Positions 671 through 9,299 of a DNA stretch of 42,214 nucleotides are shown in pieces. Origin of the DNA: an uncultured Planctomycetaceae bacterium (lineage in GTDB: Bacteria > Planctomycetota > Planctomycetia > Pirellulales > Pirellulaceae); assembly GCA_903863885.1 (NCBI GenBank), contig CAIPEB010000091.1:1-42214 (forward strand). The letters run 5' to 3'. The notes beneath the pieces are model-generated. The model worked only from the letters and a program-made list of their open reading frames with translations. It had not been told where the DNA came from and did no database searches. Numbering within the stretch: the first letter of the stretch is position 1; the number at the start of each line of letters is the position of its first letter. Both the position numbers and the translations under genes were made by a program.

Positions 671-1534
671 TCATGTCGTACCGTTTCTTCCCGCTCTCAG
701 CTTGCGAATATGCTCCGGCGTGGTGCCACAACAGCCGCCCACAATTTGCGCCGGCCAAGTTTGAGCGTATTGCAAATAGCAATCCGGGTTTACGGCGTCC
801 GTGTTGATCCAGCCTTGCGCCTCGTCGGCATAGCCAATGTTACCATAGGCAATGAGCGGAAAATCGGGGCCGCAGACCGCCCGCAATTCGGCCAGTGGCT
901 TAGCCAGAGTGTGAGCCGGGCCGCAGTTCACGCCCAGGGCCTTTACCCCCAGCGGTAACAACACTCCGGCGGCAACCGCCAACGACTCGCCGGATAGGAT
1001 CCGGCCTTCGCAATCGCACACGAAACTGACCCAAGTGGGCCGGCCCGTGATCGTCGCCAGTTCAGCCGCAATGACGGCTTCCCGAATTGAATTCATCGTC
1101 TCGATCAACAGCAGGTCAACTCCCGCTTCCACGAGATGCTGGATCCGCTCGGAGTGCTCGGCGCGGCATTCGTCATCGGGCGGCACTAGGTCGTGGCGAT
1201 AACAGTCTTCCAGTGGGGCCACCGAGCCGGCCACTTGCGCAGGTTGACCAAATTCAGCGACAGCCTCTTGGGCGGTCGCCACCGCGCGTCTGGACAATTC
1301 GCGCGCGGCGTGCGCTTCGCCCGCCAGCGCGCGGCGATGGGTGCGAAAGGTGTTGGCGGTGAGGATGTCCGCGCCCGCGTTCAAGTAGTCCAAGTGAATC
1401 TGGCGCAACACATTCAACCCGGCATCCGTGGTGAGCGCATTTGCGGACCACATTGGCAAGCCGGTGTCCACTCCGCGCCGGTTCAATTCCGTGCCGGTTG
1501 CGCCGTCAAGCAAGAGAAGTTCAACATTCATCAT
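671..1534 (-). CDS. Homocysteine S-methyltransferase family protein
   Basis: This 287-residue cytosolic protein has the length and layout of a single-domain homocysteine S-methyltransferase (MmuM/Pfam S-methyl_trans type). The family transfers a methyl group from S-methylmethionine, betaine or a similar donor to homocysteine to make methionine. Visible motifs are the N-terminal barrel strand with LLLDGATGTEL (residues 7-17), ADILTANTFRTHR (55-67), LLLIETMNS (141-149), GVNCGP with Cys204, and GGCCGTTPEHI (266-276) with Cys268 and Cys269. The three cysteines are the expected zinc ligands. There is no cobalamin or folate domain, so it is not a full MetH. The start is the first of two adjacent ATG codons (1532-1534), with GGGAG seven bases upstream. 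It follows the glycosidase genes on the same strand, but a metabolic link to them is not obvious. The methyl donor cannot be told from sequence. Confidence 0.9.
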   Translation of the reverse strand: MMNVELLLLDGATGTELNRRGVDTGLPMWSANALTTDAGLNVLRQIHLDYLNAGADILTANTFRTHRRALAGEAHAARELSRRAVATAQEAVAEFGQPAQVAGSVAPLEDCYRHDLVPPDDECRAEHSERIQHLVEAGVDLLLIETMNSIREAVIAAELATITGRPTWVSFVCDCEGRILSGESLAVAAGVLLPLGVKALGVNCGPAHTLAKPLAELRAVCGPDFPLIAYGNIGYADEAQGWINTDAVNPDCYLQYAQTWPAQIVGGCCGTTPEHIRKLRAGRNGTT

Positions 1535-1548
1535 TTACCGACTCCCGT

Positions 1549-1686
1549 TCACCGGAGGATCTGCCTGAAGGCAGTGGTGCTCATGGTCGGCTGTCCACGC
1601 AGCGCTCCTGGAGATTGATGGCCACTCCCGGCAAAAACGCAGACGATCAGGCTGAGAACAGCAATGGGGAGTGACGGGTGTTTCAT
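1549..1686 (-). CDS. Possible small secreted peptide or decayed gene start (45 aa)
   Basis: An ATG begins one base after the TGA of the GH95 gene (TGAGATGAAA) and opens a 45-codon frame ending in TGA at 1549-1551. The N-terminus is signal-like: MKHPSLPIAVLSLIVCVFAG, a basic pair followed by about 14 hydrophobic residues. The remaining 25 residues (SGHQSPGALRGQP...FRQILR) show no motif. GGAG is present upstream but rather far away. It could be a small exported peptide made by coupling with the gene before it, or the surviving signal-peptide stub of a gene lost between the glycosidase and the methyltransferase. I do not recognise it. It is listed because its position and hydrophobic profile are better than expected for a random short frame. 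Confidence 0.3.
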   Translation of the reverse strand: MKHPSLPIAVLSLIVCVFAGSGHQSPGALRGQPTMSTTAFRQILR

Positions 1687-1687
1687 C

Positions 1688-4135
1688 TCACATTCTCTCC
1701 GCGCGGAGGGTCTTGACCTCACCGTTGACGCGCAGCTTCACCTCGCGTGGTTCCGGTGAGCGGATGCGATAGGCTGTGACCTGCCCGTCCTTCCACGCCA
1801 AGTCCACGGTGAAGTTGCCGCGCGCACGCAATCCCCTGACACTGCCACTTGCCCACGCCTTCGGCCAGGCGGGAAGCAAATCAACCAGGAAGGCCGAATC
1901 CTGCCCGCTGACTTCCACCCGCTCGTGGCTTTGCAGCAGCATCTCGGCGAGGCCGGCGCAGCCGCCGAAGTTGCCGTCAATCTGAAACGGCGGACAGACA
2001 TCGAGGAGATTGGGCAACGTACTGCGGCGCAGCAGGGCGAGGAGATGCTCCCGCGCGGCATCGCCATCGCGCAGCCGCGCAAAGTGATTGATGATCCAGG
2101 CGCGGCTCCAGCCGGTGCCGCCGCCACCATGAGCCAGCCGGTAATCCAGCACCTTGCGTCCGGCGGCCAGCAGTTCCGGAGTGGCGGGCGTGATCAGGTT
2201 GAACGGATGCAGGCCGACCAGGTGCGACATGTGGCGGTGCCCCGGTTCGCCTTCCTGATAAGGTTCGGCCCACTCAAGCAAACGACCGTCGGGACCGACC
2301 TTGAGCGGCGGCAGTTTGGAGGTGGTTTCCGCAATCCGCCGCCGCATCGCTGGATCCGTTCCGAGGATGGCGGCGGCCCGGTCGGTCGCGCTGAAGATGG
2401 CGCGCACGAGACTCTGGTGATAGGTCGAGCCGGCGGTGATCCGGATGCGTTCCTTCGTGCCGGCATCGAGGTAGGTGTTTTCCGGCGACTCGGACGGGGC
2501 GATGACCAGCGTGCCGTCAGGCGCGGGCACGAGGGTGTCGAGCACGAATTCGCTGGCGCCCTGCAGGATGGGATAGAGCCGTTGCAGGAACTCGCGGTCG
2601 CCGGTGAACTGGTAGAAGTCAAACAACTGTGCCGCCATCCAGGCGCCGCAGAGCGGATCGAGCACCCCGTTGACGAATTGCGAATTGGGCGTTGAAGCGC
2701 TGGGGGTGACGCGGCCGAACGGATTCGTGGCGAGGAAGGCCACCCAGCCGTCGGACCCGTAGAGCCGGCTGGCGGATTCCCGGCCGCGCTGAGCCAATAG
2801 CTCGAACCAATCCATCAAGGGCGCGACGGTTTCCGCGAGATTGGCCGGACCGGCGGGCCAGTAGTTCATCTGCAGGTTGATGTTGAGGTGGTAATCCGCC
2901 TCCCACGGCGCCCATAGGCGATCGCTCCAAATCCCCTGAAGGTTGGCCGGCAGGCGCGCGGGCCGGCGTGAGCTGTTCATGAGGAGGAAGCGTCCGAACT
3001 GGAAATAGAGCGCGGCCAACCCGGGATCATCGCCACCCTTGCGGACCGCTGCCAGTCGGGCATCGGTCGGTAACTTCGCCAGCGCGTCGTCCGTCCCGTC
3101 GAGTTGCAGCGAGACGCGATTGAACAGGTCGCCGTGTTCGGCCAGGTGAGCTTGGAGCAGCTCTGGCCAAGACTTCTTCGCCGCGTTCGCCAGAATGCCC
3201 GCACTGACTTGTGCCGGATCAATCGCGCGATCGAAGTTGAGTTTGGCCAGATTGTAGTCGGTAGCGGCCGTGAACAGAATCACCGCCTCGCCAGCGCCTT
3301 CGAGGCGCAACAGGCTGCCCTCCGCACTCACCTTGCCGCGATCCACGCGCACCAGCAGGCGACCGGCGAACTTCATGTGCGCTCCGCCCGGGCCGGAGCC
3401 GCCCGGATTGTCTTCGTAGCCGCCGTCTTTCTTTTCCACGTCCACAATTTGCCCGTCGAGGTGGAGCTGACCATCGGCTGTGGCGATAACCGCGGCGTTC
3501 CGCTGGCGCGTCAGACTTACCCCAAATGCCAGCGTGCCGGGTTTGTCGGTTTTCACGCGCATCGCCAGCACGTTGTCGGGCGCGGAGATGAACGTCTCCC
3601 GCGTCAGCGTGGCTTCGCCCTGGCGGAAGGTCACCCGCGCGATGCCGTCGGCGAGGAAGAGTTCGCGCCGGTAGCCGGTCACGCTCTCCACGGCCCCGAA
3701 ATCGAGCCACAAGTCGGCGAGCGGCTCGTAGGAGCGAAACGAAGTCGGCGTCGCCGTCATGTGGGCGACCCCATAGGCCTGCGCCTCGGCGTTCTTCCCA
3801 GCGAATAGCAGGCGGCGGACTTCGGCGAGGCGTTCGGGAAAATCCCGCGGCCACGCCTCGACGGGACATCCGGCCCACAGGCTCTCCTCGTTGAGCTGCA
3901 AACGCTCCTTGCCGGGAGTCCCGAAAACCATCGCGCCCAGCCGGCCGTTGCCGAGGGGCAAGGCCTCGTTCCAGTTCGTGGCCGGCTGGCGATACCACAG
4001 ACACAATGGGGCTTCCTGAGTTGCAGCGTTGATACCAGATTCAGCCAGTTGTGCGGGCGCAGGCAACTCGGCGGCGGAAAGCGAGGAGCACGCAGTTAGA
4101 AGTGAAGCCAAGAGAAACCGGATGCGTGTTTTCAT
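1688..4135 (-). CDS. GH95 family glycoside hydrolase (alpha-L-fucosidase / alpha-L-galactosidase type)
   Basis: This 815-residue secreted enzyme matches GH95 along its whole length. The family uses inverting hydrolysis to release terminal alpha-1,2-linked L-fucose, or L-galactose in some members. The order is: signal segment (1-21, with LTAC at 13-16 that could be a lipobox, or cleavage after SLSA); N-terminal beta-sandwich beginning YRQPATNWNEALPLGNGRLG (48-67) with LNEESLWAG (81-89); (alpha/alpha)6 barrel from about 320; and a C-terminal beta domain from about 735. Conserved motifs are LPANLQGIW (395-403), DYHLNINLQMNYW (414-426), APSESPEN (546-553) and PPFQIDGNFGG (715-725). By analogy with the Bifidobacterium 1,2-alpha-fucosidase, Asn418/Asn420 with Asp720 would form the base system, and Glu552 the acid. 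The start 23 nt after the esterase gene's stop indicates co-transcription. No clear Shine-Dalgarno precedes the ATG. Family assignment is firm; fucose versus galactose specificity is not resolved. Confidence 0.93.
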   Translation of the reverse strand: MKTRIRFLLASLLTACSSLSAAELPAPAQLAESGINAATQEAPLCLWYRQPATNWNEALPLGNGRLGAMVFGTPGKERLQLNEESLWAGCPVEAWPRDFPERLAEVRRLLFAGKNAEAQAYGVAHMTATPTSFRSYEPLADLWLDFGAVESVTGYRRELFLADGIARVTFRQGEATLTRETFISAPDNVLAMRVKTDKPGTLAFGVSLTRQRNAAVIATADGQLHLDGQIVDVEKKDGGYEDNPGGSGPGGAHMKFAGRLLVRVDRGKVSAEGSLLRLEGAGEAVILFTAATDYNLAKLNFDRAIDPAQVSAGILANAAKKSWPELLQAHLAEHGDLFNRVSLQLDGTDDALAKLPTDARLAAVRKGGDDPGLAALYFQFGRFLLMNSSRRPARLPANLQGIWSDRLWAPWEADYHLNINLQMNYWPAGPANLAETVAPLMDWFELLAQRGRESASRLYGSDGWVAFLATNPFGRVTPSASTPNSQFVNGVLDPLCGAWMAAQLFDFYQFTGDREFLQRLYPILQGASEFVLDTLVPAPDGTLVIAPSESPENTYLDAGTKERIRITAGSTYHQSLVRAIFSATDRAAAILGTDPAMRRRIAETTSKLPPLKVGPDGRLLEWAEPYQEGEPGHRHMSHLVGLHPFNLITPATPELLAAGRKVLDYRLAHGGGGTGWSRAWIINHFARLRDGDAAREHLLALLRRSTLPNLLDVCPPFQIDGNFGGCAGLAEMLLQSHERVEVSGQDSAFLVDLLPAWPKAWASGSVRGLRARGNFTVDLAWKDGQVTAYRIRSPEPREVKLRVNGEVKTLRAERM

Positions 4136-4158
4136 GAATGCACCATTGTGATGTGCCG

Positions 4159-5421
4159 TCAGGGGCGCCCGGACTGCAGCATCTTGAGGTTGGCCTCGGC
4201 GAAGCTCTTGCCCATCAGCGCGAAGGTCTTCGCGCAGCCGAGGTAGTGGTAGCCGGCGTTGGATGCGCCGCGTTTCCAGAGCGCGGTTTCGGCTGGCGTA
4301 ATGAGGTCAGCCTCGAACGTCTTCACAAACTCCCGCTTTTGCTCCTCCGTCATCTTCCCATCCGCGTTGGCATGGTCCCTGTGCTTTGAATCGAGAAAGT
4401 AGCGCATCTGGCCGACCTTCTCGTGCTTCTTGTCGATGGCTGCGAGTTCATCCGACCAGAACGGCGCAGTTTGCACGGCGACGACACTGCCCTTGAACTC
4501 GGGCATGGCCGCGGGCGCTGCCATCGCCCGCCGGAAAGCCACCATATCCACTGACTCGTCCTTGAGTCCGCCAACCCCCATCACGCCGATCACGAATGGC
4601 AGGTTGGGGGCGGCCAGATCCTTGCGCACGTCACGGATAAAATGTGTGAGTAATTCCGAGTAAAGATCGAAGCGGTTCGGCGTGTTGTGGTTCGGATAGA
4701 CATGGCCATCGACCATGTCATTGAACCCCTGAAGCCAGACAAACCCCGCGAGTTCGAAGCCCTTTGCGGCATCATAATCCGGACAGACCCGCTTCGGATC
4801 GGCGAGCACCTTTTTCACATGCTCGATCATCAGGCGGTAGTAGTGACCGGTCGCTTTCGCTTTATCGGCTTTCCACTGTTCGAAGTCCTTCGGGATGCCA
4901 TGCCCTGTCTGCTTGGGATAGTTCTCCCGCTGAAAAGAACTCAGTTCATAAGGCCCCGCGCTCGGCGAGCGGAAATCCGTGTGCAGGCTCTTGCCGCCCC
5001 ACGCCGCCTTGACGATGAGCACCGGCTCCGCGAGCGCAGCGTCCATCGTGATACCAAAGGTGAATTCGGGGCCGATCTTGTCGCCGGGCTTCTTGGAGTC
5101 CAGGCCCCACATGGACCCGTAGCCTGCCGTCAGTTTACCGGTGATTTCGAAGTCTTTCTCGCCGTCGCCCGTGAGATACGAAATCCACGTGTGATCGCAC
5201 ACCGTCGGCTTCCCGTCGGCACCCCGCATCAACTTCAGCAGCGGGGCGGTCGCCGGATCGTCGCCGATGTAGTCAAAGGTCGTGATACTCGCCGGCCCTT
5301 CCATGTTGGACTGGCCCGCGAGAATGAAGACTTTAAGCGGCTTCGCATCCGCAGCGGCGCCGGGGGCTGCCAGCAAAGCGGCCAGAGAGAATGCGTGAAT
5401 CAGTTGAAATGTGTGCTTCAT
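4159..5421 (-). CDS. Secreted SGNH-type sialate O-acetylesterase-like carbohydrate esterase
   Basis: The 420-residue protein begins with a clear signal peptide (MKHTFQLIHAFSLAALLAAPGAAA) and continues into an SGNH/sialate O-acetylesterase-like (SASA) fold. Block I is VFILAGQSNMEG, with the presumed nucleophile Ser38. AAWGGKSL (139-146) supplies the oxyanion-type glycine block, WLQGFND (229-235) matches the W-Q-G-x-N-D block, and the late YHYLG (His392) is the likely catalytic histidine. Such enzymes remove acetyl groups from sugars of complex glycans. A frame extension to a GTG at 5466 would add 15 polar residues before the signal peptide, so the ATG at 5421 is preferred. It sits directly upstream of the GH95 gene (23-nt gap), which fits deacetylation of a fucosylated glycan before the glycosidase acts. 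The exact substrate (sialic acid, xylan, fucan or other) cannot be read from the sequence. Confidence 0.85.
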   Translation of the reverse strand: MKHTFQLIHAFSLAALLAAPGAAADAKPLKVFILAGQSNMEGPASITTFDYIGDDPATAPLLKLMRGADGKPTVCDHTWISYLTGDGEKDFEITGKLTAGYGSMWGLDSKKPGDKIGPEFTFGITMDAALAEPVLIVKAAWGGKSLHTDFRSPSAGPYELSSFQRENYPKQTGHGIPKDFEQWKADKAKATGHYYRLMIEHVKKVLADPKRVCPDYDAAKGFELAGFVWLQGFNDMVDGHVYPNHNTPNRFDLYSELLTHFIRDVRKDLAAPNLPFVIGVMGVGGLKDESVDMVAFRRAMAAPAAMPEFKGSVVAVQTAPFWSDELAAIDKKHEKVGQMRYFLDSKHRDHANADGKMTEEQKREFVKTFEADLITPAETALWKRGASNAGYHYLGCAKTFALMGKSFAEANLKMLQSGRP

Positions 5422-5859
5422 GGTCGAACTCGGGTTCGGCTGGTCTATTCGCTCGCGGCTTGGCACATGACGATGGGAACATAGCCCGCCTCCATGCCCT
5501 TGCGCGGCGTGACAATCAGGGCTGGCGCGGCTGTCAGGAACTTTGATTTCTCCTGAGTCTACGGTGGAGACTGGCTAAATCAAGGGAATCCAGGCGAGCT
5601 TACGTTCCAATGCGGGCCGCACTCCTTGGAACATTAGCACCTCGCGGCCGTTTCTGGTGGCGGGGAGCCGAGTGGGGGCCTGCCGGAGTGCACCATGCCT
5701 GCCGATGCACGCAAAATACGGGTCGATCCCAAATCCGGGGCGCAGCGTTGCCTCCCGACGCGAGTCGAGGATGCGTTAGAAGTTCGCCAGGAAGGTGTTG
5801 ATCTGAGAAGTAGTCGATTTCCCTGAAACGGAGCGCCACAGTTTCAAGCCGTATCAATC
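5422..5859. other. Divergent intergenic region
   Basis: This 438-nt stretch lies between the leftward esterase gene and the rightward FSxRT remnant. It must carry the promoter of the leftward enzyme run, but I see no convincing sigma-70-like box pair. The short frames on both strands (for example 5600-5857 minus) lack a ribosome site, a signal sequence and any recognisable motif. No tRNA-like or riboswitch-like fold stood out. Confidence 0.5.
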
Positions 5860-6129
5860 ATGGACAGGGATCGAAAACGCCGTCGAATGCAATTCAGCAC
5901 GCGGACAATGCTGATCGCGGTTTTCGCGGCGTGTGTTGTCTTGGGCGTAGCCGCGTCTCTCCGAGACGCGTTGACCTCGCGTCTCGGAGAGACGCGGCTA
6001 CGCGCACGCTCCGGCCGACTCTGTCACTTCCCCATACTCCAACGGCTCGCCAACCTATTCCCGGAACTCCGCCTGCGCTGTCATGAAGTCTTGTTCGGCG
6101 GAGAATCGCGGTCGGCGTGCCTCGATTAG
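5860..6129 (+). pseudogene. FSxRT-type small membrane protein, truncated by palindromic element
   Basis: The first 30 codons read MDRDRKRRRMQFSTRTMLIA then VFAACVVLGV: a basic N-terminus, the 'FSxRTxLIAV' motif and one transmembrane helix. This is the typical opening of many small planctomycetal membrane or secreted proteins. Right after the helix (codon 29 onward) the frame enters the 59-nt inverted repeat at 5945-6003 and then continues as Arg/Leu-rich sequence with no domain (AASLRDALTSRLGETRLRAR and so on) until a stop at 6127-6129. I read this as a gene whose C-terminal part was lost or replaced when the palindrome arrived; the tail is translation of the repeat plus flanking DNA. ATG codons at 5860 and 5887 are both possible and neither has a strong ribosome site. 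It could still be expressed as an 89-residue single-pass membrane peptide. Confidence 0.45.
5945..6003. repeat. REPIN-like nested palindrome (two inverted 26-nt arms)
   Basis: Positions 5945-5970 and 5978-6003 are perfect reverse complements (26 of 26), separated by the 7-nt spacer TTGACCT. Each arm itself contains a smaller hairpin, CGCGTCTCTCCGAGACGCG (8-bp stem, 3-nt loop; 5952-5970 on the left). The element is thus two REP-like hairpins in inverted orientation, the layout of a REPIN. Because it is palindromic, both strands encode the same peptide pattern (AASLRDA...TRLGETRLR). There is no T-run after it, so an intrinsic-terminator role is doubtful. Confidence 0.85.
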
Positions 6130-6189
6130 ATTTGTTATCTTTTCTTGAGCACCCGCGCGGATTCACTGCGGAATTGACTCAGAAAACGA

Positions 6190-6194
6190 AAGGG
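6190..6194 (+). promoter_or_regulatory. Shine-Dalgarno site selecting the GTG start at 6201
   Basis: AAGGG lies six bases before the GTG at 6201. The open frame extends upstream to another GTG at 6117, but that start would place 28 extra residues ahead of the signal peptide and overlaps the FSxRT remnant. The internal GTG is therefore preferred. Confidence 0.6.
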
Positions 6195-6200
6195 CGAACC

Positions 6201-9200
6201 GTGTTTGCATCTGGCGTGCACGTTGGGCGACCGGCAGGGATTTCGCGGCTGATTCTGGCGTCATTGATCGGGAGTGCGCTGCCGATTGCGGCCCATGCGC
6301 AAGAACTCGTGAAGCAGTCCGCGGAAGTGCGGACGGAGGCCGACCGGATTGTCATCCGCAACGGCCAGAACGAGTTGCCGGTAATGGTCGCCTGTCCCAC
6401 GTTTGTTTTGGATGGCCAGACCGTGGGCGGAAAGCAGGCGTCTGCGGCCCCGAAGGGCGACATCGCTTCGGGCGAGCCGGTGCAGATCGATCTGCCTCCC
6501 GTGGATTTGCAGGACGGCAGCCGGATCGAGGCCAAGTTGTTCCTGCAGTGGTCCGCGAAGGAATCGGTCCTTCGAAAGTGGACGAAGTTCCGGATCGCCG
6601 GGGGAGCCAAGCCGGAACTGGTCAGCGAGGTAGTTTTGGAGCGGATGGACCCGGCCCTCGGAGGCAAGCAGTTCTACCGTGCCTCGCCGCAGAGCTATCC
6701 GGTGTTCGTGAAGGGATTTTTCGCGGGTATCGAATACCCGGTGGCGAGCACGCGAGTCGAGAAAGGTGCAGCAATCTTAGCGCACAGGCCGGGCATCAGG
6801 CTTCAGCCGGATCAGTGGTACGAGAGCCGGAAAGCCGTGTACGGAGCAGTTCCCGAAGGCCGGGAACGAAACGGCTTCGGCGTATACATCGCGCGGCATT
6901 ACCCCCATCCCAAGCGACTGCACCTCAATTACTGCAGTTGGTGGTCAACCGGCATCCCATACAGCGAGCAGGAGATCCTGGACCTGATGGGAATCGTCAA
7001 GCAGAAGATGTACGACCCTTACGGCATCGGATACCACACGTTCGGAATCGACATGGGCTGGTCCGATCCGCACAGCATCTGGGAAGTCAGCAAGAAGATG
7101 TTCCCCAAGGGGCTGAACCCGGCGCAAGCCGCCGCCAAGACGATGGGGACCCGTCTGGGTGTTTGGATATCGCCATGCAGCGCCTACCCCGATGCGTTGG
7201 ACAATAAGTGGGCGAAGGAAGCGGGCTACAAGACGTTCAACAGCAAGCTGGGCGACGCCGACTATCCGTTGCTCTGCACTACCGACGAGCGTTACATGGG
7301 CGAGTTGACCCAACGCATGATCGACATGACCGAGCAGTACGGCGTGCGGCATTTCAAGCTCGACAATTTCCGATTCGCTTGTCCTGAAAAGGACCACGGA
7401 CACGAGCCGGGCGACCTTGCAGCCGAAGCAACGGCCGGCGCCATCATCAAACAGTTTGAGGAATTGCGCAACGCCTGCCCGGACGTCTGCATCGAATCCT
7501 GTGCGTTCGGCCCTTTCGAAAGCCCGTGGTGGCTATTCCACGTCGATGCGCTGCTGGGCGAGTACGGGGATGATTATCCATACGGATTCACTCCGTGCCC
7601 CGTCTACCATGAAACATATACGACTTCGCGCGATTTCCATTTCTTCCAAAGCGTATTGCTGAACACAAGTCTGCCGCGGGACCAGCACGTCTGCGGTATC
7701 TGCCAGCAGGAGCCCGGGACCTGGATCAATGACGCAGTGGTGTGCGTCATGCGGGGCCCCATGTTCCTGGCCAGCTACATAAACCCCAACTACATCAGCG
7801 ATCCGCAATGGGCGGCCTACGCGGCGACATTGAAGTGGGCAGTAGCCAATCAGGACGTTCTTCACAACACCGAACTGCTACTGCCGGTTTCGATGGCCCA
7901 AGGCAAAGTCAGCGGCGTGCCGGGGGGGCGCGACCCCATGGTGCGCGAAGCATATGGCTACGCTCACCAGAACGGCGGGCGCGGACTGGTGATGCTGCGC
8001 AATCCCTGGATCAAGCCGCAGAGTTACGCGTTGCGACTGGACGAAACGACCGGCGTTCAGGGCGCGGAGACCGTGAGTCTGGTGAGCCTGTTTCCGCAAG
8101 TGCGAGTCTACGGGCGCGACGTCAAGGCAGGGGGCGTCGTGAACATCCCGCTGGCCCCGTACGAGACCATTGTGCTTTCGATTGCTCCCCGTCAGAACCT
8201 CGAGGGGCTGCCTGAGGCGGCGAATGCCACCGGCGAACGGATTAAGGTATCTGATATCAAGAGCAAGGCCGCCCGCGTGGCGTTGACCGGCTCCACCGAG
8301 GCGCTGGGGTCGGACTGGATCAGCCCGCTGTCAGGAATCACGGAAACGCTGGACGTGAAGCTGGAGGCTAAGGTCTCGGTGCAGGCTCCCCAGTCACAAC
8401 TACTGGTCCTGATCGAAGACGATAAGAAGGTGGCCGATCCACTCTGCAAGGTCTGGATCGACGGCAGGGAAACGCCGGTCACGATCAGCGGATCGGATAC
8501 GGGATGGGCAGCCTCCGGCGCTCCGCCAATCGAACACTGGCTGTTCTTGATGGCCGACCTGGCCCCAGGGGATCGCGACGTGCGTGTGGAGTTGACCAAC
8601 CGCAGCGGCACGGCCAGCGCCGCCGTGTGGGTGTGGGCCAAGCAGCCCGGCAAGACCGGCCACACGCCCGGCTATGCCAATGCGCTGCCCGAACCCGAAA
8701 CCATTTCATTGGATGCTGTGCCGCTGCTGGAGCCGGTGAGTCTCGGGACAGCCGGCCTCGAGTCAATCAGCCAGTCGCGGCCCGTGGAGAAGATTGCCGG
8801 TATCTTCCTGGATGCTCTGGACGGCAAGCGAGTGGCGTCCTCGGTGGAGATGCTGGGCCGACGCTCGGCCGATCAGTCCGTGGTGCTGGGCGCCGTTCAG
8901 GCGGTGGAGAAACAGGCGGCGGCGGTGCAGCGTAACAAGAGCATCGGCGAACAATCGATGACGATCTTCGGCCGGCATTATCTGCGCGGCTTGGGCGTAC
9001 AGGCGCCGTCGACAATGGCCGTGGCATTGAACGGAGAATTCAAGCGATTCCAATCGCACGTCGGGCTGGACGGGGCACTCAACGTGTGGGACGAATCCAC
9101 GTTGACGTTTCAGATTTGGGTTGACGGTCAGAAAAGATGGGAATCGGGCAAACTCAAACGTAACATGGCGTCCGACTGGGCCGATGTGGACGTGAGCGGC

Positions 9201-9299
9201 GCCCAGACACTGGAACTGATCGTTGTCAAGGAACCCAGTCAATCAGGCCGAACGGTGTCGCCATGGGCGAATTGGGCCGAGGCGCGGTTGTTGCGATAG
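6201..9299 (+). CDS. Secreted clan GH-D-like glycosidase with C-terminal NPCBM domain
   Basis: With the GTG start at 6201 the product has 1032 residues. A signal peptide (SRLILASLIGSALPIAAHAQ, about residues 15-34) is followed by a beta-sandwich domain to about 230. A TIM-barrel domain of GH27/GH36 type runs from about 240 to 590. It contains LHLNYCSWW (240-248), FGIDMGWSD (281-289), LGVWISP (319-325), VRHFKLDNF (382-390) with Asp388 the likely nucleophile, CIESCAFGP (430-438), and VDALLGEYGDD (448-458) as the candidate acid/base region. A beta-rich module follows (about 600-660 and 680-815). The last about 190 residues form an NPCBM carbohydrate-binding domain: HYLRGLGVQAPS (926-937), FQIWVDGQKRWESG (970-983), and the ending WANWAEARLLR. 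The likely role is removal of alpha-galactose-type residues outside the cytoplasm. The exact GH family and sugar are not certain. It is convergent with the giant gene. Confidence 0.82.
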   Translation: MFASGVHVGRPAGISRLILASLIGSALPIAAHAQELVKQSAEVRTEADRIVIRNGQNELPVMVACPTFVLDGQTVGGKQASAAPKGDIASGEPVQIDLPPVDLQDGSRIEAKLFLQWSAKESVLRKWTKFRIAGGAKPELVSEVVLERMDPALGGKQFYRASPQSYPVFVKGFFAGIEYPVASTRVEKGAAILAHRPGIRLQPDQWYESRKAVYGAVPEGRERNGFGVYIARHYPHPKRLHLNYCSWWSTGIPYSEQEILDLMGIVKQKMYDPYGIGYHTFGIDMGWSDPHSIWEVSKKMFPKGLNPAQAAAKTMGTRLGVWISPCSAYPDALDNKWAKEAGYKTFNSKLGDADYPLLCTTDERYMGELTQRMIDMTEQYGVRHFKLDNFRFACPEKDHGHEPGDLAAEATAGAIIKQFEELRNACPDVCIESCAFGPFESPWWLFHVDALLGEYGDDYPYGFTPCPVYHETYTTSRDFHFFQSVLLNTSLPRDQHVCGICQQEPGTWINDAVVCVMRGPMFLASYINPNYISDPQWAAYAATLKWAVANQDVLHNTELLLPVSMAQGKVSGVPGGRDPMVREAYGYAHQNGGRGLVMLRNPWIKPQSYALRLDETTGVQGAETVSLVSLFPQVRVYGRDVKAGGVVNIPLAPYETIVLSIAPRQNLEGLPEAANATGERIKVSDIKSKAARVALTGSTEALGSDWISPLSGITETLDVKLEAKVSVQAPQSQLLVLIEDDKKVADPLCKVWIDGRETPVTISGSDTGWAASGAPPIEHWLFLMADLAPGDRDVRVELTNRSGTASAAVWVWAKQPGKTGHTPGYANALPEPETISLDAVPLLEPVSLGTAGLESISQSRPVEKIAGIFLDALDGKRVASSVEMLGRRSADQSVVLGAVQAVEKQAAAVQRNKSIGEQSMTIFGRHYLRGLGVQAPSTMAVALNGEFKRFQSHVGLDGALNVWDESTLTFQIWVDGQKRWESGKLKRNMASDWADVDVSGAQTLELIVVKEPSQSGRTVSPWANWAEARLLR

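Follow-up and report, generated by a model that had tools for sequence, protein, structure and literature searches.

The palindrome at positions 5945–6003 of the window, a 42,214-nt stretch of DNA that forms contig C91 of its own draft genome (G000), is a REPIN composed of two inverted GTAG-tagged REPs with the core CTC-TCC-GAG. We consider it very likely that the window copy is a non-autonomous element placed by a RAYT, and that the G000 copies largely multiplied as the passenger of a MITE moved by an IS66-family transposase. A REPIN is in itself a known kind of element. The second carrier, an IS66-type MITE in a draft where no RAYT of the matching clade was found, is unusual.

The palindrome and the frame around it

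The inverted-repeat search, with spacers of 3–20 nt considered, returned 5945–6003 as the longest perfect inverted repeat of the window. Its arms (5945–5970 and 5978–6003) are exact reverse complements of 26 nt and form a head-to-head dimer in which the GTAG tags lie outermost. Each arm holds GTAGCCGCGTCTCTCCGAGACGCG, which consists of an unpaired GTAGC, an 8-bp stem (CGCGTCTC/GAGACGCG) and the 3-nt loop TCC. Folding and the 24-mer count placed the left REP at 5947–5970 on the plus strand. The right REP (5978–6001, minus strand) is its exact inverted copy, separated from it by the spacer TTGACCT (5971–5977). The 24-nt unit 5947–5970 folded with −9 kcal/mol (z = −3.6), and the single strand 5940–6008 reached −41.9 kcal/mol (z = −11). 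The 24-mer of the REP unit occurs twice in the window, as compared with a mean of 0.00 over 100 shuffles. The locus combines the inverted REP pair, the short spacer, the single-hairpin fold and the GTAG beside the stem by which REPINs are recognized. The perfect 26+7+26 inverted repeat with a hairpin in each arm, described in the sequence-only reading, was confirmed, and its arms proved to be GTAG-tagged.

An 89-aa open frame on the plus strand (5860–6129), a host gene or gene remnant, runs through the REPIN. On the opposite strand, a 90-aa ORF covers 5894–6166. Both read VAASLRDA...RLGETRLR through the palindrome, in line with the earlier remark that the element puts the same peptide on both strands. 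When peptides like SLRDA/RLGETRL turn up in predicted proteins, they can stem from translation of a repeat. The first 29 codons of the plus-strand frame (5860–5946) provide an FSxRT-type membrane start, a motif of planctomycetes that makes such a bacterium the likely host. When the query was ended at residue 29, residues 5–29 or 6–29 matched the starts of larger frames in relatives (L237, L238, L241, and L251) with an identity of 52–58%. A profile search of the ORF yielded no Pfam or NCBIfam family. The codon scores in its frame were 0.01 before the element and −0.08 after it, as compared with 0.43 and 0.50 in the correct frames of two control stretches taken from a gene on which the score had been trained. 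The claim that an FSxRT membrane-protein gene is interrupted held for the FSxRT-like start, but the open frame is a mechanical one whose weak codon score does not demonstrate a gene. An FSxRT-type frame broken by REPIN insertion, perhaps already a remnant, is a plausible but unproven reading of these sequences.

The repeat-searched family genomes included no same-genus genome for an empty-site comparison, and no true empty site was seen. Both flanks were searched against 80 loci that hold a relative of the upstream gene, and no match spans the site. The hits were a 58-nt piece with 81% identity in the outermost part of the upstream flank (L107) and one weak protein match (L105). As for the wider surroundings, positions 671–9299 encode, in a row, a homocysteine S-methyltransferase, a GH95 glycosidase, a SASA-type esterase and a 1060-aa NPCBM protein, which is a small sugar-degradation neighbourhood. 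On the minus strand, one uninterrupted frame of 10,927 codons (9430–42213) extends to the contig edge. Its product, with FG-GAP repeats in the C-terminal half, is probably a giant secreted or surface protein.

Dispersed copies and their IS66-type carrier

The draft genome G000 comprises 11.0 Mb in 789 contigs and is 96.26% complete. With up to 3 mismatches, the 24-nt unit gave 61 matches in it, 38 of them exact, and the reversed control gave none. Some of the matches overlap, wherever units have collapsed pairwise into one palindrome. Grouped within 300 nt, the matches correspond to 39 places dispersed over the genome, as is characteristic of REPINs, and 14 of these lie at contig edges. The sequence-only reading had named uniqueness in the genome as the outcome that would speak against a mobile element; this objection fails on the above count. 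The window copy differs from its siblings in some respects. Its spacer is unlike the AAGTCCG-like spacers common among the G000 copies, and the flanking CAC/GTG common at other copies is absent. The exact 24-mer was absent from the viral contigs scanned.

Most of the G000 places carry the ends of a second element. Using the 22-nt sequence GTAACCGTTCACGGGGTGGGCC with up to 6 mismatches, we found MITE ends at 27 of the 39 places, as a pair at 16 and singly at 11. Some of the single-ended places may be the two halves of one copy split across contigs. The remaining 12 places, including the window, have no MITE ends, and 3 of these are at contig edges where one side is unseen. Five of the 12 (L001, L007, L017, L039, and L045) have a second flank in common, as judged by eye and weak in L001; the window copy has neither this flank nor the MITE ends. 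In total, 21 end pairings were obtained in G000, 18 of them with the repeat. Dropping two cross-pairings at L005 left 16 complete REPIN-bearing MITEs, ten of 125 bp, five of 99 bp and one of 97 bp. In the 99-bp variants L002, L015, L034, and L041, both REPs are collapsed into one short palindrome.

Exact 9-bp target duplications border 10 of the 16 complete MITEs, and 4 others have a duplication with one mismatch. Of the remaining two, L026 shows an 11-bp direct repeat and L037 shows no duplication. Two repeat-free end pairings of 369 and 367 bp have 3 mismatches in the 9-bp duplication. The same ends also enclose a 465-aa protein on contig C175 (L080). The element there measures 1490 bp between its outer edges and is bordered by an exact 9-bp duplication. 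Its protein belongs to the IS66 family, with 112 bits to PF03050 and 269 bits to NF033517 (cut-off 180). The inverted ends in common with the G000 IS66 element, together with the target duplications, mark the small elements as IS66-family MITEs. They resemble IS66-family insertion sequences and their MITEs in the DDE_Tnp_IS66 transposase, the common inverted ends and the target duplications. The usual IS66 target duplication is 8 bp long, whereas it is 9 bp here, and the core of the present MITE is a REPIN. According to this arrangement, the IS66-family DDE transposase would move the MITE with the REPIN as a passenger, which would account for much of the present copy number in G000.

Among the family genomes, the repeat (up to 1 mismatch) was found in 17 of 241, G000 included. 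Of the 16 copies read in G244, 9 consist of opposed pairs and the others are single or degenerate. Five or more repeats were present in 4 of the 6 stretches read in G036. G244, G072, and G117 contain 26–40 repeat copies each without an intact close RAYT, so the number of copies is not a simple function of the RAYT, and G000 is not an isolated case. In G072, each of the 12 copies read adjoined one or both ends of another element, CAATACCGTTCAACGAAG. This element is complete, with a length of 124 bp, in six cases, and 9–10-bp direct repeats are found at the borders in five of the six, one of them with a mismatch. The border repeats (L230, L231, and L265–L274) mostly contain GTTTAAC, GTTAAAC or near variants, and such a target preference may add to the match of the border repeats. 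The capture of REP dimers by another element appears comparable in this other genus.

A RAYT clade flanked by the repeat in relatives

The RAYT that belongs to the repeat was found in relatives. G036, which holds 339 matches of the repeat (up to 2 mismatches), contains a REPtron. Its RAYT ORF (L314:1088–1753, 221 aa) is preceded by 11 repeats and followed by 6 (up to 5 mismatches), and it takes its stop codon from the GTAG of the adjoining repeat. The protein scored 54.7 bits to NF047646, which does not reach the cut-off of 80, and it also fell below the Pfam Y1_Tnp cut-off. It has the HUH motif NHAHF (NHxH) and the tyrosine motif YIAENP (YIxxN). Both motifs recur in an alignment of 15 sequences, the tyrosine end missing from one broken frame (L322). 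Relatives of this RAYT at E 1e-20 or better were present in 102 of 240 family genomes, and G000 was not among these.

To characterize the flanks, we surveyed 31 fetched loci at which the match to the G036 RAYT was near-full-length and at least 40% identical, further matches being left out. All five RAYTs at least 50% identical to it (G036 itself included) are bordered by GTAG repeats with the core CTCTCCGAG, as compared with none of the 26 at 40–48% identity. The five (G036, G028, G188, G196, and G109) represent five genera. The shuffled control gave 1 match in 2.1 Mb. Four of the five have repeats on both sides; the G028 contig starts before the RAYT gene, and only one side is visible. The association of a cognate RAYT with the same repeat, a further hallmark of REPINs, is therefore present in the relatives. 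A RAYT fragment in G105 (L365; one stop, 55% identity over 96 residues) also has core repeats on both sides. Its locus contains seven GTAG or GCAG repeats with the CTCTCCGAG core and adds a sixth genus to the association. No core repeats were found at the fragments in G244 (61% over 89 residues) and G071 (49% over 125).

GTAG hairpins of other kinds, in many cases likewise containing CTCC, occur at several of the 26 RAYTs at 40–48% identity. The more distant RAYTs of the same group at L346, L350, L351, L354, and L319 adjoin such other GTAG hairpins, with CTCC in the loop region in four of the five. This pattern suggests a co-evolution of RAYT and repeat around a conserved loop.

For G000 itself, the search for a RAYT of the G036 clade gave no match at E 0.001 or at E 1e-20, in a draft of 789 contigs. 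A repeat-flanked RAYT could lie in an assembly gap, because the draft is so divided and 14 of the 39 repeat places are at contig edges. The NF047646 profile gave four matches in G000, all below the cut-off of 80 bits. Two long HUH-like proteins (L078 and L079) reached 28.1 and 27.6 bits, and their loci contain no repeats; they were rejected as RAYTs. Y1_Tnp (PF01797) matched two genes only, both assigned to IS200/IS605 by NF033573. The proposal that a RAYT mobilizes the element in trans was borne out for the repeat family, whose relatives contain a RAYT clade flanked by such repeats, but not for G000, where no member of the clade was found.

As a RAYT detector, Y1_Tnp was discarded. Beyond the two G000 genes it gave 13 matches in G036 and 42 in five other genomes. 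No repeat (up to 5 mismatches) was found near the 4 G000 Y1_Tnp/NF047646 genes or at the 13 G036 Y1_Tnp loci. For the 42 matches, 30 loci were fetched; three of these contained the repeat (up to 6 mismatches), and each was rejected as the site of a cognate RAYT. L191 (G244) is surrounded by a different GTAG repeat, other inverted repeats border the gene at L199 (G244), and the repeat lies more than 1 kb from the gene at L188 (G117). The tree of HUH proteins, built from 30 of 47 loci, showed no clade common to all repeat-bearing genomes. These Y1_Tnp negatives are misleading, because the cognate RAYT clade scores below the Pfam cut-off; it was found through NF047646. The hairpin GTAGCCGTGGGTCGCCGAAGGCGCACCCACGG that surrounds the IS200-like Y1_Tnp gene of L191 lies in a 96-nt repeat present there in four copies.

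Origin of the window copy and persistence of the repeat

The prevalence of MITE ends among the G000 copies raises the question of whether the window copy arrived with an IS66-type MITE and later lost the ends, with no RAYT involved. Such ends flank 27 of the 39 places, and the MITE-borne REPINs have the same arms as the window REPIN. We nevertheless regard this course of events as improbable. No trace of the 22-nt ends was detected within 80 nt of the window REPIN, and its spacer differs. The window is also one of 12 places without ends (3 at contig edges), and all 16 copies read in G244 have the repeat without IS66-type ends.

Whatever its origin, the palindrome might have been kept as a regulatory hairpin of the gene at 6117–9299, acting as a terminator or an mRNA-stabilizing REP. 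It forms a very stable hairpin shortly before a long ORF, and REPs are described as often adjoining genes (PMC3733652). This role is very improbable in light of the sequence, where inspection revealed no T-run after the hairpin on either strand. Moreover, copies are located at many different sites, and with up to 1 mismatch allowed the repeat is missing from 224 of the 241 family genomes. We disfavour most strongly the notion that the palindrome belonged to the coding sequence of the FSxRT protein from the start, which we consider hardly credible. The frame does stay open through the palindrome, and a few weak matches of relatives cross it (27–40% identity, E 6e-4 to 0.009). The best-looking of these, in G060 (L239), aligns over residues 6–59 with 38.9% identity and E 0.002, and it has 10/24 identities before the palindrome part, 5/19 within it, and 6/11 directly behind it. 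We take these matches as probable chance or compositional likeness, although this is not proven. The 61 matches in G000 are at odds with a coding origin, and among the relatives whose FSxRT start is clearest, identity drops at the junction: for L237 and L251, from 13/25 before it to 4/19 in the palindrome part, and for L241, from 14/24 to 1/6 after it. The L238 alignment ends at residue 29. The palindrome part is matched strongly in G000, G117, and G138, by what look to be copies of the repeat; for G138, the repeat was checked at the locus. Twelve of 13 loci with an FSxRT start hold no repeat, and the thirteenth (L240) is itself a repeat copy. Conservation of the 89-residue protein through the palindrome, which the sequence-only reading had set against its own proposal, was not seen in any convincing relative.

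We return to placement by a RAYT as the preferred reading. A RAYT of the G036 clade, an HUH tyrosine transposase, would act in trans on single-stranded DNA. It would read the GTAG tag and the hairpin, and it would place the copy at the end of the membrane segment in the FSxRT-type frame. Because MITE ends are absent, the window copy would either date from an earlier placement by a RAYT or owe its position to a RAYT that the assembly lacks.

The window element resembles the REPINs of Pseudomonas fluorescens SBW25 (PMC3116915) as described there: an inverted REP pair with a short spacer, folding into a long single-strand hairpin, dispersed and linked to a RAYT. In contrast to these, the RAYT was found here in relatives and not in the host draft, and most places have MITE ends. 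Compared by description, it also fits the super-family of GTAG-tagged REPs (Di Nocera 2013, PMC3733652) in its GTAG tag, 8-bp stem, short loop and head-to-head dimer. According to that report, GTAG REPs occur in planctomycetes, with several families in R. baltica, and intragenic REP units as well as REP dimers inside longer palindromes are known. Unlike the G000 MITE, its palindromes are tied to no IS family or target duplications in the portions of the text available. The G036 locus parallels the REPtrons of TnpA-REP (PMC8266576), where a HUH tyrosine transposase gene is bordered by GTAG repeats and where GTAG and a stem-loop are given as the recognition features. It departs from them in the scores of its clade, below both the NF047646 cut-off (54.7 of 80 bits) and that of Pfam Y1_Tnp. 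Among the matches listed from the openly licensed literature, no title or abstract opening presented a REPIN enclosed by a MITE or IS66 element, or a REPIN that lacks a RAYT and uses another carrier.

Genomes with REPs but without a REPtron have already been reported (PMC3733652). The present case ties one REP to its own RAYT clade through consistent flanking in five genera, and in G000 the same repeat is found mainly in an unrelated DDE-type element. With the RAYT-clade tie and the carriage by a DDE element in hand, the persistence of REPINs without a RAYT by riding other elements is now testable. The lineage of G000 may have lost its RAYT or never had one. We give even weight for and against the view that such a REPIN population survives by a change of carrier, as the DDE-copied core of an IS66-type MITE. 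If this is true, hairpin repeats may outlive their transposase by parasitizing other mobile elements.
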